DNA of 28,434 nt from the IMG/VR virus record IMGVR_UViG_3300024359_000029, positions 1-28,434 of that record; one strand, given 5' to 3'. Under the pieces are notes generated by a model. That model had not been told where the DNA came from, made no database searches, and worked only from the letters and a program-made list of their open reading frames with translations. Of the stretch, positions 19,172-25,181 are shown in pieces. Position 1 is the first letter of the stretch, and each line of letters begins with the position of its first letter. The position numbers and the translations under genes were made by a program. Origin of the DNA: a virus.

Positions 19172-20368
19172 ATGTCAAAAATTCCGAGCATATGTATGAT
19201 ACCTTCAGGGTATAAAGCAAACAAAGTGTATAGTGTATTACCTACAAATGGTGATGCAGATTTAGCAACAACAAGAGCATCAACAGCAACAAGGGTTAAT
19301 GAAATAGGTTTAATAGAAGAAGTAGCTTCTAATGTACCAAGATTAGATTATTCTGATGGTGGATGCCCTGCTCAATTATTAGAGCCTGAATCAAGAAATT
19401 TATTTACGCATTCAGAAGATTTTAGCACTTACTTAGTTTCTCCTACACAAACAACTAATTCGACTGTTGGAATTAATGGGATTTCTGTAAACTCTTATTA
19501 TGGTGCAACTACTTCTTCAACAATTACTGTTTTAACAGATACATACTATACTGTAAGTATCTATGCTAAAAAAAATAATTGGGGTTTTATACAAATACGA
19601 ACATCAAATTTTGATGCAGGTAGTAATGCAAGGACTTGGTTTGATTTAGAGAATGGCATTGTAGGCTCAACCGACACACCTGCTAATCACATCAATCAAA
19701 CTATTAAGTCATTTGGTAACGGATGGTACAGATGTAGTATTACTTTCAAATCGGTAACAGATTTGAACGGTAATGTTACTTTCTCTGTAAATGAATCAGA
19801 CACAAGTTTAATAAATGGTTCTTCATCATCTGAAGATTTATTTTTCGATGCAGCACAATTAGAAGAACAATCTTACGCAACAAGCTATATACCAACAAGT
19901 GGTGCAACTGCAACAAGAGTAGCAGAAACATTAAGTAAGACTGGCTTAAGTAATTATATTAATAGTAGTGAGGGTGTTTTTTATTTTGAGGGTAGTTTTT
20001 TATCAAATTCTGATACTTCTTTAATAGAACTTAATGACAACAGTAGTAATAATAGAGTTTCTATTTATACAGAAAGTGGTTTGTTGAACGCTAATTGCTT
20101 TAATGGAGTAAGCAACACTATATCTTTTGCAGGTAATCCAACTGAAAACAACAAATTAGCTATTAAATACTCAATTAATGATTTAAGATTTTTTATAAAC
20201 GGGACTTTAGTTGGAACAGATAATACATTTTCAGGTTTTACATCTGATTTATCTGCAATTTATTTTTCTTTGTCGAGTGGATTAATTCCATTTAGGGGAA
20301 AAATAAAAGACTTAAGAGTGTACAATGAAGCATTAACAGACGCAGAATTACAAAAATTAACAAGCTAA
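19172..20368 (+). CDS. Lectin-like fibre or adhesin protein (concanavalin/LamG-type)
   Basis: The protein has 398 residues. It starts with 'SGYKANKVYSVLPTNGDADL' and has a first beta-rich module with 'GYKANKVYSVLP', 'EPESRNLFTHSEDFS' and 'QLEEQSYATSYIPTSGATAT', motifs seen in phage fibre proteins that carry a carbohydrate-binding fold. The last ~140 residues form a second concanavalin-like sandwich with 'EGVFYFEGSF', 'IKYSINDLRFFINGTLVGT' and 'FRGKIKDLRVYNEALTDAEL', the classic LamG ending. It probably binds surface glycans of the host and may be the receptor-binding protein or a head fibre. It stands apart from the tail-tip genes, next to the connector genes, so a head or neck fibre is possible. 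Confidence 0.7.
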   Translation: MSKIPSICMIPSGYKANKVYSVLPTNGDADLATTRASTATRVNEIGLIEEVASNVPRLDYSDGGCPAQLLEPESRNLFTHSEDFSTYLVSPTQTTNSTVGINGISVNSYYGATTSSTITVLTDTYYTVSIYAKKNNWGFIQIRTSNFDAGSNARTWFDLENGIVGSTDTPANHINQTIKSFGNGWYRCSITFKSVTDLNGNVTFSVNESDTSLINGSSSSEDLFFDAAQLEEQSYATSYIPTSGATATRVAETLSKTGLSNYINSSEGVFYFEGSFLSNSDTSLIELNDNSSNNRVSIYTESGLLNANCFNGVSNTISFAGNPTENNKLAIKYSINDLRFFINGTLVGTDNTFSGFTSDLSAIYFSLSSGLIPFRGKIKDLRVYNEALTDAELQKLTS

Positions 20369-20378
20369 TAAATAAATT

Positions 20379-20717
20379 ATGAAAATAAACATTGGAAAAT
20401 ACGCTTTTGATAGCAAAGAACAAGCACAAACTAAAATTAAAGGTTTAGGCGTAGAAACAGATGAAAATGGTAATGAATATCCAACACATAAACACACTAT
20501 CGTACATTTAGGGCATATAGTAGAACAACAAGGGCAATATGATGAAGATGGTAATGAAGTAGTTGCACCTGTGTTATCTTCTAAATATCACGTTGATGTT
20601 TTATGGAAAGGTATTGATGACCATCCTTATGGTTGGAAGTCTTATGCAGCTAATGTAATTGGAAATGGAGTGCATTCATTTTTAGGCTTAAATTATGATT
20701 CATATAAAATAGACTAA
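20379..20717 (+). CDS. Hypothetical protein after the fibre gene
   Basis: The protein has 112 residues. It has 'PTHKHTIVHLGHIVEQQG' near 35-53, rich in histidine, and 'HVDVLWKGIDDHPYGWKSYA', with a conserved-looking 'GNGVHSFLGLNYD' close to the C-terminus. I have the impression of a protein widely present in marine phages after fibre genes, but no function is known to me. The stop overlaps the next ATG (TAATG), so it is coupled to the lysis region genes. Confidence 0.55.
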   Translation: MKINIGKYAFDSKEQAQTKIKGLGVETDENGNEYPTHKHTIVHLGHIVEQQGQYDEDGNEVVAPVLSSKYHVDVLWKGIDDHPYGWKSYAANVIGNGVHSFLGLNYDSYKID

Positions 20718-20977
20718 TGATAGAGTTAATAAAGAAAATATTAACACACCAAGATAGAATAGCAGTTGATAAATTAAGACACTTTTATAGTGGTACATTA
20801 GGCTTTGCTTTATTCTGTATATTAATAAATCCTATTTGGGCATCAGTTATTGTAGTTGGTGCAGGAGTGTTTAAAGAATTATATGATGTAATTACAGATA
20901 AAGGTAAAGGAGAGGTTTTAGATGGCTTCTTTACTTCTCTGCCTGTTATATTATATTGGTTAGTAGTAATATTTTAA
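20717..20977 (+). CDS. Small membrane protein with two hydrophobic segments
   Basis: The protein has 86 residues. After a basic N-terminus ('DRIAVDKLRHFYSG') come a first hydrophobic stretch (about 26-50) and, after the polar KELYDVITDKGKGEVLDG, a second one (about 70-86). The K-E-x-x-D and G-x-x-x-D pattern between the two segments resembles small phage or VanZ-like membrane proteins. It precedes the GAF-like membrane protein, endolysin and holin candidates, so it may help lysis or change the membrane during infection. Coding overlaps the previous gene by 1 bp. Confidence 0.55.
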   Translation: MIELIKKILTHQDRIAVDKLRHFYSGTLGFALFCILINPIWASVIVVGAGVFKELYDVITDKGKGEVLDGFFTSLPVILYWLVVIF

Positions 20978-21005: not shown

Positions 21006-21644
21006 ATGAATAAATATATGTTGTTATTAGAGGCGATTAATAAGACAAAATGGTGGATAATCTTACTATTGTTTTTAGGTTTTATAATTAATAGTTTTAA
21101 GACAGAAATACAATATCTTGTAGAATATAAGTTATTAAACAAAGATGTTATAATAGAAAGGTTAGATGGAGATGTATTAATTGAAGATGCATTGTATGAT
21201 TTGATGAACAAAACAGGTGCAGATAGAGCATATATTTTTAGGTTTCATAATGGAGTAAACTATTACAATGGAAAACATAAATCTAAAATGTCTAATGATT
21301 TTGAAGTAACAAGAGCAGGAATAAGTAGTGAAGCACAAAGATTACAAGATGTACCTGTTGGTTTATACGCTAAATGGATTAAAGATGTAATTAATTACAG
21401 AATGATGCACCCTGATGTTAATGAAATAAAAGATGTTAGAACAAGGTTAGAGTTACAAAGGCAAGGAATTAATGCTATTGGAGTAGTGCCTTATTACAGA
21501 AAAGGTAAAATATTAGCTTTAATAGGAGTTGACTATGTAAGACCATTAGATAGTGTAAAGTATCACAAATACTTAAAAGACCCTAAAGGAGGTTTAGAAA
21601 GGTTTAAAGTAAGTGCAAACGAAATTGGAAATTTATTAAGATAA
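21006..21644 (+). CDS. Membrane-anchored GAF-like domain protein
   Basis: The protein has 212 residues. A single membrane helix (about 16-33, WWIILLLFLGFIINSF) is followed by a soluble domain (about 58-178) with the look of a GAF fold: 'GADRAYIFRFHNGVNYYNGK', a helix with 'AGISSEAQRLQDVPVGLY', and the closing 'INAIGVVPYYRKGKILALIG', where strand-turn-strand ending in GVDYV is typical. GAF domains sense small ligands such as cyclic nucleotides or redox state. There is no output domain (no kinase, HTH or cyclase part). Set between small membrane proteins and the endolysin gene, it may monitor the cell state or tune lysis; this is inference. No catalytic motif is seen. Confidence 0.55.
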   Translation: MNKYMLLLEAINKTKWWIILLLFLGFIINSFKTEIQYLVEYKLLNKDVIIERLDGDVLIEDALYDLMNKTGADRAYIFRFHNGVNYYNGKHKSKMSNDFEVTRAGISSEAQRLQDVPVGLYAKWIKDVINYRMMHPDVNEIKDVRTRLELQRQGINAIGVVPYYRKGKILALIGVDYVRPLDSVKYHKYLKDPKGGLERFKVSANEIGNLLR

Positions 21645-21650
21645 AAAGCT

Positions 21651-21827
21651 ATGAAACAAATAGTATTTAAAAATGGATACACCTTTGATATTACTAAAGA
21701 AGCAGCGAACACTTTAAAAAATGAAATAATAAGAGGTTGTAGTAAAAATCAAGTTCTTGTTAGAGGTAATAATGAATTAGATTTTATGATAAACATTGAT
21801 GAAGTGATTTTGATAAAAGATATTTAA
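21651..21827 (+). CDS. Small hypothetical protein
   Basis: A 58-residue frame starting at ATG 21651, 6 bp after the GAF-like gene. It reads as a compact small protein of the form strand-helix-strand (MKQIVFKNGYTFDITKEAAN ... VILIKDI). It could be a YopX-like or generic phage orphan. Start context 'AAAGCTATG' resembles the contexts of the next two genes (AAGATAAGCTATGA), which supports translation of all three. Confidence 0.55.
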   Translation: MKQIVFKNGYTFDITKEAANTLKNEIIRGCSKNQVLVRGNNELDFMINIDEVILIKDI

Positions 21828-21843
21828 TTTATTAAGATAAGCT

Positions 21844-22011
21844 ATGAATGAACAAGATATAAAATTAGCTATTTTAAACATATTGAGCTTTATTTTAAGT
21901 TTCTCTAATGTTGAAATGACACTAAAAATAATATTACTTATTGTTTCAATAACGTACACCTTAATAAAAATCAATCAATCTCTAAAAAATAATAAAAAAG
22001 ATAAGCTATGA
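21844..22011 (+). CDS. Small membrane protein, holin candidate
   Basis: A 55-residue frame with two hydrophobic stretches (about 9-20, AILNILSFILSF, and 28-43, KIILLIVSITYTLIKI) and a lysine-rich, polar C-terminus (NNKKDKL). Size and layout fit a small class II-type holin. It overlaps the endolysin gene as ATGA (stop 22009-22011, start 22008), the classic holin-endolysin coupling. A second candidate with two membrane helices is at 22462-22953, so the two may share or divide the holin role. Confidence 0.55.
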   Translation: MNEQDIKLAILNILSFILSFSNVEMTLKIILLIVSITYTLIKINQSLKNNKKDKL

Positions 22012-22340
22012 CTCGTTATTTTAAAGAATTAGATAATTTAGATAAGATGGATAAAACTTTCTTATTAAGATTAGATGAAGCAAGAGAAAGAGCAGGAATA
22101 CCATTTATAATTAATTCAGCATATAGAACACCTGAACATAATGCTAAAATAGGTGGTAAGCCTAATTCAAGCCATTTAAAAGGACTTGCAGTAGATATTA
22201 GTGTTACTAATAGTAGACAACGTTTTGTTATATTAGAATCTCTTATAAAGGTTGGTTTTAATAGAATAGGTATTGCAGATACATTTATTCACGTAGATTT
22301 AGATAAAGAGAAATCTGAAAAAGTTGTTTGGACTTATTAA
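22008..22340 (+). CDS. Endolysin, M15-type peptidase
   Basis: The protein has 110 residues, about the full length of a single catalytic domain of the M15_3 family (D-Ala-D-Ala carboxypeptidase / L-Ala-D-Glu endopeptidase type). Motifs: 'INSAYRTPEHNAKIGG' (35-50), SHLKGLAVDI with zinc ligands His56 and Asp63, and FIHVD with His95. It cuts peptide cross-links of peptidoglycan to free progeny. No signal peptide or cell-wall-binding domain is present, so it needs a holin; candidates stand directly before and after. The start overlaps the preceding small membrane gene by 4 bp. Confidence 0.88.
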   Translation: MTRYFKELDNLDKMDKTFLLRLDEARERAGIPFIINSAYRTPEHNAKIGGKPNSSHLKGLAVDISVTNSRQRFVILESLIKVGFNRIGIADTFIHVDLDKEKSEKVVWTY

Positions 22341-22461: not shown

Positions 22462-22953
22462 ATGGAAAACAATAACCCTAAATTAAGAAAAAATGGTGGT
22501 AAAGGAACTTTCTTTGGTAACTTATGGAGAAGTGTTGTAAAAAACAATATTCCTTTAGGTGATACTATTATTGATGCTATTGACAAGAAAGATGTTGGTA
22601 AAATATTTGAATCTATTACTAATGATGTTCAATTAACAGAAGAACAAAAAGAAATACTATTAGCTAACTTAAAACAAGACGTTACTGAAATGGAAGAAGT
22701 AACAAAACGTTGGCAATCTGATATGTTATCTGATAGTTGGTGGAGTAAGAATATAAGACCTTTAAGCCTTGCTTTTTTAACTTTAGCATTATTCCTATAT
22801 ATTATATTAGATAGTTCATTAGAAGGCTTTAAAATAAACGAAGCGTGGATAGATTTATTGTCTTCTTTATTATTATTAGTCTATGGAGGTTATTATGGTG
22901 CAAGAGCAGTTGAAAAAGTAACTCACATCAAAAATAATAGAAATATGAAGTAA
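22462..22953 (+). CDS. Holin-like membrane protein (3TM holin type)
   Basis: The protein has 163 residues. A soluble, charged N-terminal part of about 95 residues with a helical 'QLTEEQKEILLANLKQDVTE' is followed by 'RWQSDMLSDSWWSKNIRPL', a signature leading into two membrane helices (about 98-117 and 129-148). The short C-terminus is basic (HIKNNRNMK). This is the arrangement of the gene-transfer-agent/3TM holin group found in Bacteroidota phages. It would form or assist membrane holes that release the endolysin made from the gene before it. Alternatively it acts as an inner-membrane partner of the small holin candidate at 21844. Confidence 0.7.
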   Translation: MENNNPKLRKNGGKGTFFGNLWRSVVKNNIPLGDTIIDAIDKKDVGKIFESITNDVQLTEEQKEILLANLKQDVTEMEEVTKRWQSDMLSDSWWSKNIRPLSLAFLTLALFLYIILDSSLEGFKINEAWIDLLSSLLLLVYGGYYGARAVEKVTHIKNNRNMK

Positions 22954-24563: not shown

Positions 24564-24581
24564 TATTTAAATTATTTTTTG

Positions 24582-24589
24582 TATATTTG
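24582..24589 (+). promoter_or_regulatory. Bacteroidota -7 element before the HNH nuclease gene
   Basis: TATATTTG ends 4 bp before the ATG at 24594, giving an almost leaderless transcript, as with the GIY-YIG gene at 15061. The upstream bases ATTTTTTG resemble those before 25918. No clear TTG at -33. Confidence 0.6.
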
Positions 24590-24593
24590 CTTT

Positions 24594-25181
24594 ATGAAAA
24601 AATTATGTAAATATTGTGGCGAAGAGAAACCTATTACTCAGTTCAATAAAAAGAAAAATGGGAAGTACGGTGTGTCGTCTAAGTGTAAACCTTGCTTTAG
24701 TGAATATTATAAGTCCTACTACAACAAAAACAAGAAATCTAAAATTAATTCAGTAAAAAACTACTACAACAATAACAAGGATTCAGTTTTAAAATATAAG
24801 AAGGAGTATTATGTTGAAAATAGGGAGCTTCTTATTAGAAAAGCATCAGATAGAAAAGAATTTAAGAGAAAGACAAGTGGGTTTCATAGGATGAAGTATA
24901 ATCTTAGAAAAAGAACATCTTCGGCTTTTAAGGTTAATTACTGGACTAAAAAAAGTAGTAATTCTAAAATGCTTGGGTGTTCCTATAATGAAGCTAAATC
25001 TTACTTAGAAAGTAAGTTTGTTGATGGAATGAATTGGGATAACTATGGAGAATGGCATATAGACCATATAAAACCTTTATGTTCTGCTGAAACTAAAGAA
25101 GATTTGATAAAACTATGTCACTACACTAATTTACAGCCTTTATGGGCAAAAGATAATTTATCTAAAGGTGGTAAATATTAG
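24594..25181 (+). CDS. HNH homing endonuclease with N-terminal zinc ribbon
   Basis: Started at ATG 24594 the protein has 195 residues; an upstream ATG at 24579 would place the promoter element inside the coding region. The N-terminus holds a zinc-binding site: Cys5-x2-Cys8 and Cys31-x2-Cys34 around GEEKPITQF. The middle is a basic, tyrosine- and asparagine-rich linker typical of mobile nucleases. The C-terminus has the HNH-type catalytic region: 'YGEWHIDHIKPL' (His155, Asp157, His158), then 'TNLQPLWAKDNLSKGG' with Asn179 and Asn188. It stands 30 bp after the terminase gene. No intron boundaries are seen, so it is free-standing. Confidence 0.85.
   Translation: MKKLCKYCGEEKPITQFNKKKNGKYGVSSKCKPCFSEYYKSYYNKNKKSKINSVKNYYNNNKDSVLKYKKEYYVENRELLIRKASDRKEFKRKTSGFHRMKYNLRKRTSSAFKVNYWTKKSSNSKMLGCSYNEAKSYLESKFVDGMNWDNYGEWHIDHIKPLCSAETKEDLIKLCHYTNLQPLWAKDNLSKGGKY

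Follow-up and report, generated by a model that had tools for sequence, protein, structure and literature searches.

A membrane-anchored GAF-fold protein encoded beside a phage endolysin as a possible T-type lysis timer

The window, the whole stretch of DNA analyzed here, is a virus contig of 28,434 bases. Its + strand carries a run of close genes in the order tail, 112-aa ORF, 86-aa ORF, GAF gene, 58-aa ORF, 55-aa ORF, endolysin, holin, 131-aa ORF, and terminase, with the tail protein (19172-20368) standing first. The GAF gene (21006..21644, +) starts with ATG and encodes a membrane-anchored protein of 212 aa. Upstream of it, the 112-aa ORF (20379..20717, +) matches phrog_18574, a family with no function assigned, while the 86-aa hydrophobic ORF (20717..20977, +), for which Pfam and PHROG profile searches returned no family match, is a possible holin; both ORFs recur upstream in the nearest relatives. 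Downstream, the 58-aa ORF (21651..21827, +) lies between the GAF gene and the endolysin, and the 55-aa hydrophobic ORF (21844..22011, +), which has relatives in loci L016 and L121, overlaps the endolysin start. The endolysin (22008..22340, +) belongs to the peptidase M15 family (PF08291, E 2e-16; phrog_894, E 1.1e-26). It is followed, about 800 bases downstream of the GAF gene and in the same gene run, by a holin of 163 aa (22462..22953, +; phrog_3427, E 2.5e-27) that weakly matches the Pfam family GTA_holin_3TM, to which TeaA of ICP1 was assigned (PMC7182436). The gene had been placed in a lysis region from the sequence alone, and the downstream M15 endolysin and phrog_3427 holin confirm this placement. 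Elsewhere in the window, an Endonuclease VII/HNH-like gene (24579-25181; phrog_1035, E 6.9e-24) directly follows the terminase, and a DNA methyltransferase gene (1785-2408, - strand; phrog_757, E 2.5e-49) lies in an oppositely oriented left block. Because the nearest named relative of the GAF protein is gp12 of Nonlabens phage P12024S, the host is likely to be a marine member of the Flavobacteriia.

The protein begins with a weakly amphipathic N-terminal helix (21009..21044, +; residues 2-13; moment 0.37 versus a group mean of 0.56), which is followed by a membrane helix (21048..21104, +), seen as a hydrophobic stretch at residues ~15-33 and as a helix at residues 16-30 of the AlphaFold2 model. 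Two bridge helices (21099..21215, +; residues 32-44 and 48-70) run into the GAF domain (21153..21641, +; residues ~50-212), whose limits are based on both profile and model. The model, built from a 53-sequence alignment, reached a mean pLDDT of 88.9 and a pTM of 0.73. Its top matches in the PDB were GAF domains (Foldseek E 3.2e-7, prob 1.00), and re-checking of the Foldseek matches with VIA-align gave a Z of 16.1 over 145 residues at 2.6 A against a solved GAF domain. The best matches came from cyanobacteriochromes and phytochromes; the closest solved domains are bilin binding, which gives no information on the ligand of the window protein.

At the level of sequence, the window protein on its own scored 17.9 bits (E 0.0045) against Pfam GAF PF01590, below the cut-off of 22.4, while 40 of the 53 family members matched Pfam GAF and 8 of the 53 matched GAF_2 at E <= 0.1. 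BLAST linked the protein to a PAS-GAF-GGDEF protein through the latter's GAF domain (E 3e-7), and a sequence search of the PDB returned no matches with A1 and four marginal ones (E 0.13 or worse) with A3. The GAF assignment is sound. The protein shares the fold and a detectable BLAST similarity with bacterial GAF domains such as those of cyanobacteriochromes and PAS-GAF-GGDEF proteins; in contrast to these, it carries an HNG motif and a membrane anchor, and its 212 aa contain no output domain. The sequence-only reading had described one membrane helix and a lone GAF-like domain without an output module, and all three points were borne out, with structure prediction having been its own proposed check on the domain.

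We found nine residues invariant in all 53 aligned sequences of the phage family: R74, H81-N82-G83 (21246..21254, +), G89, E100, G105, P162, and G174. Three alignment scans of IMG/VR, which overlap one another and from each of which 80 relatives at most were kept, yielded 137, 197, and 64 confirmed relatives. In bacterial and archaeal genomes (84,980 species, one genome each), two motif scans produced 14 and 32 pattern matches, none of which was confirmed as a relative. Since these scans were keyed on the YIFRFHNG-type motif, the description of the family as phage-only applies to its motif-bearing members as seen here, and cellular relatives lacking the motif may exist. Among the 53 members, 51 matched PHROG 14038, 45 matched PHROG 38864, and 37 matched PHROG 30125, all of which are annotated as being of unknown function.

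The nearest named relative, P12024S gp12, is 48% identical to the window protein over the full length, shows no notable difference from it, and is likewise followed by an endolysin and a holin; it is annotated as hypothetical. In the crAss-like phage BS-TP1, the relative lies three genes before the endolysin, and in cr52_1 it adjoins a LysB-like gene. BLAST also matched two records deposited as "Bacteriophage sp.", MT837964 (L003) and MT835688 (L094). These were rejected as phage relatives because they carry bacterial-looking PAS-GAF-GGDEF proteins, in the case of L003 together with housekeeping-like genes; they are probably bacterial contigs and were excluded from the phage counts, serving as evidence for GAF homology only.

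To assess the link to lysis genes, we counted endolysins among the next three ORFs after each GAF gene. The first set comprised 100 distinct proteins; 62 of them were adjacent to PhoH, and none of these 62 had an endolysin at that distance. Loci were considered informative if they held at least 900 bases downstream, which left 30 of the other 38 (8 shorter contigs were dropped); an endolysin was present within the next three same-strand ORFs in 25 of these 30, as compared to 18 of 241 other ORFs at the same loci. This first-set neighbor count omits the named-record loci L002, L004, L092, L093, and L095-L097. An enlarged set of 106 distinct proteins, deduplicated on the last 150 aa, contained 53 PhoH-adjacent members, again without an endolysin in any (0/53), and 53 others. 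Of the latter, 43 were informative (10 shorter contigs dropped), and the endolysin lay within the next three ORFs in 32 of the 43, with varied endolysin types. Co-occurrence with lysis genes in other phages, which the sequence-only reading had proposed as a check, was thus found. Among the 11 misses, an earlier clustering assigned an M15 endolysin to L111, L215 has an endolysin-like ORF in fourth place, and L031 has its amidase and holin on the opposite strand. No endolysin was found among the ORFs listed for the remaining eight.

The endolysins beside the GAF genes matched PHROGs 894, 822, 7, 6584/17001, 2649, and 465, and the weakly lysis-like PHROG 1259 was also among the matches at the endolysin position. 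Because PHROGs 894, 2649, and 465 may all be M15-like, we counted the unrelated endolysin kinds as at least five. Near-identical GAF proteins (L131, L123, and L121) adjoin different endolysins. In the tree, the window falls within a set of 17 rows, all of them endolysin-linked (99/90), while the PhoH-linked rows form two separate groups. The GAF protein of the window's lineage is not a stray sensor.

The PhoH-linked relatives, such as that of Microcystis phage Mel-JY01, belong to the same family and have one membrane helix, a GAF domain, and the HNG motif in common with the window protein; they differ in having no endolysin neighbor, almost no segment before the membrane helix, and the opposite charge bias. 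PhoH has a lone membrane-anchored GAF gene as its fixed neighbor in two groups of T4-like phages (L032-L091 and L132-L150); the GAF gene lies upstream of PhoH in one group and downstream in the other.

According to the positive-inside rule, the charges flanking a membrane helix indicate its orientation. In the lysis lineage, the mean net charge was +1.6 before the helix and -0.1 after it, and the N side was the more positive one in 21 of 29 proteins and the less positive one in 1 of 29; the window protein itself has +2 and 0. For the two PhoH-linked groups, the N-side means were -1.6 and -0.9 and the C-side mean was +3.8, with the same sign in 24 of 24. By flanking charge, the PhoH-linked GAF domains look to face the cytosol, while the lysis-linked ones are more likely to be on the periplasmic side. 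Because the same measure was flat for the T4 holin T (+1 and +1), whose family is characterized by an N-in, C-out orientation, we treat this orientation as a weak hint.

Comparison of the window model with predicted viral structures (Foldseek) returned close relatives first and then annotated holins: a class III holin (E 2.1e-5), a holin (E 8.8e-5), and a T holin lysis mediator (E 1.4e-3), all with prob 1.00. T4 T chains were absent among the 50 re-aligned matches listed for the window model, which carries no weight either way. We then examined T from the other side, using a model of T4 T (gene t at L174:2722-3378) built from 15 relatives (pLDDT 80.5). This model matched its own crystal chains (6PXE, 6PX4, and 6PSK) with Z values of 24.5-26.2, and the next matches were the GAF domains of a phytochrome and of PixJ (Z 13.5, 127 and 132 residues, 2.9 A). 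Since GAF domains come directly after T's own chains, the periplasmic regulatory domain of T4 T is, as modeled, GAF-like in fold. Among the open-access papers searched, judged by title and the start of the abstract, we found none that links GAF domains to phage lysis; the word "GAF" is absent from the main text of PMC11413866 and PMC12162936, and the T crystal structure paper may note the GAF nature of the domain.

Because the GAF fold is common, its presence in both proteins does not by itself show function; the likeness to T extends to layout and gene position. T has been described as having an N-terminal helix, one membrane helix, a bridge helix, and a C-terminal globular domain, the latter being regulatory and the N-terminal and bridge helices making the hole (PMC12162936). 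At 218 aa, T4 T is about as long as the window protein, and both models present the same order of elements, namely, a short helix, the membrane helix, the bridge helix, a hairpin, a helix, a hairpin, and a C-terminal helix. Tail fiber genes lie upstream of T in T4, as in the window, and in T5-like phages and Vibrio phage Chloris the T-like holin is immediately followed by a lysozyme or an M15 endolysin (M15 in Chloris). These T-like holins are also the best-scoring T relatives under the GAF family profile, yet they reach 14 bits at most. The two proteins also differ. The H81-N82-G83 family motif is absent from T4 T; conversely, C175 and C207 are invariant in the T alignment, including the T5-like and Chloris relatives, and the periplasmic disulfide of T is reported as important (PMC12162936), while the window protein has no cysteine and hence no counterpart of these residues.

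Profile comparisons gave mixed results. The alignment of the GAF family with the T profile (hhalign) was colinear, with a single-comparison E of 0.0012 and a probability of 19%, and a narrower T set gave an E of 0.0052 and a probability of 7%. The domain-only score (24.1) was higher than that of any of 100 column-permuted controls (maximum 20.3); over the full length, the score (29.2) barely exceeded 100 controls that retained the membrane part (maximum 28.0). With the full-length family profile, four T-family proteins ranked above all 966 unrelated ORFs. The domain-only profile scored Chloris at 11.4 bits and the T5-like protein at 9.8 bits versus 7.2 for the best background ORF, and it placed T4 T itself at rank 497 of 809. 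With a profile of the lysis lineage only, the best background ORF (9.9 bits) beat all T proteins, including the Chloris and T5-like holins (7.5 and 5.5). Searching in the opposite direction, the T profile placed 15 of the 53 family members in the top 20, but the window protein itself ranked 250th of 820. Given this weak sequence support and the missing cysteines, we hold with at most moderate confidence that the window protein works like T, and we do not assign it to the T family.

Together, these data lead us to propose, as a tentative best explanation, that the gene may encode a T-type (class III holin-like) membrane protein that times lysis. The membrane helix, the GAF fold, the fold and layout shared with T, and the conserved lysis position are directly supported; we infer the periplasmic side, the formation of a hole, and a ligand. 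The short N-terminal helix and the single membrane helix would sit in the inner membrane, and the bridge helix would lead to the GAF-fold domain, more likely in the periplasm. By analogy with T4 T, the lesion through which the endolysin escapes would be formed by the membrane part, and the GAF-fold domain would act as its regulator, delaying or releasing the lesion through self-association, a partner protein, or a small ligand in the well-kept pocket. That the GAF motif is conserved across the aligned sequences points to a ligand or a tightly bound partner. Speaking against a T-type protein, besides the weak sequence likeness and the missing cysteines, are the existence of at least one other holin in the window and the absence of the gene from P12024L, a sister phage that shares its host with P12024S. 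The sequence-only reading saw a sensor without output, a frame that is probably wrong, as the membrane helices themselves would probably be the output, as in holin T. Its proposal that the domain could time lysis or sense a host signal stands in its tie to lysis, through the kept endolysin position and the T fold, but not in its cyclic-nucleotide and defense part.

Another explanation, which we consider rather unlikely, is that the GAF protein forms no hole and acts as an antiholin-like regulator that delays or triggers the downstream GTA/TeaA-type holin. The idea arises from the weak match of the 163-aa holin to the Pfam family of TeaA, for which holin activity is reported (PMC7182436), and a phrog_3427 holin accompanies the GAF gene in the window, L014, L023, L025, L100, and P12024S. 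Moreover, P12024L retains a phrog_3427-type holin although it has no GAF gene, as expected if the GAF protein just tunes the holin. Against it, many endolysin-linked relatives have no phrog_3427 holin among their listed neighbors, and the ORFs around ICP1 teaA, considered as a source of related antiholins, proved unrelated to the GAF family. A holin-like protein of 134 aa is also described for MaMV-DC (ORF70; PMC12843271).

It is also unlikely that the protein plays no part in lysis and is instead an accessory membrane protein, serving for example in superinfection exclusion and occupying a variable slot between the tail fiber and endolysin genes. In P12024L, two ORFs of 47 and 88 aa replace the GAF gene between near-identical flanks (L171:8462-8893). 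Because this phage lives without it, the gene is dispensable for growth there; the P12024S and P12024L genomes differ in other genes too. Relatives also occur elsewhere, half of the enlarged set beside PhoH (53/106) and, in Salmonella phage Arash, one within a gene cluster that carries a structural annotation. The variable-slot explanation is, however, at odds with the enrichment of endolysins next to the GAF gene over other ORFs of the same loci, which holds across several endolysin families. The 88-aa replacement, with a single hydrophobic stretch and possibly a coiled coil, itself weakly matches lysis-type families (Rz-like spanin, E 0.035). In addition, Polaribacter phage P12002L encodes a highly diverged GAF-like protein, found by structure search, in the same place, directly before the endolysin (P12002L_0031, L200:26905-27528); the structure match was tied to this gene by phage and by the length of 207 aa. 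P12002L_0031 also has a weak SieA-like match.

GAF domains often bind small ligands, and a signature of the NKFDE type marks those that bind cyclic nucleotides. This background favors a ligand sensor, as do the cytosolic look of the PhoH-linked relatives and the kept stretch from E100 to P117 (E....GIS.E...LQ.(I/V)P), which resembles bacterial PAS-GAF-GGDEF proteins; nevertheless, it is very unlikely that the protein is a cytosolic, membrane-tethered GAF domain whose ligand is a host signal (a cyclic nucleotide, for example) and which serves as a sensor or an anti-defense sponge, given that a pattern search found an NKFDE-like signature in none of the 53 members, that the charge bias of the window's lineage leans the opposite way and weakly hints at a periplasmic GAF domain, and that PADLOC, a library that models defense systems and hardly covers counter-defense proteins, gave no match for the window protein at E <= 0.1. 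Neither the cyclic-nucleotide sensing nor the counter-defense role suggested from the sequence alone is thus supported.

Returning to the T-type lysis timer, a bolder version, which we regard as improbable, would be a ligand-gated holin of Bacteroidota phages, in which a small molecule in the GAF pocket sets the timing of lysis. T4 T would then be a derived form that lost the pocket motif and gained the protein partner RI, and members of this one phage family would lie in the membrane in opposite orientations, depending on whether they serve lysis or adjoin PhoH.

What determines when lysis occurs, and which signal T-type holins respond to, is an old question in phage biology. If T is regulated by a GAF domain, and a wide set of phage relatives retains a conserved GAF motif, control of lysis by a ligand can be tested directly. 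The T-type reading would also give a likely function to PHROGs 14038, 38864, and 30125.
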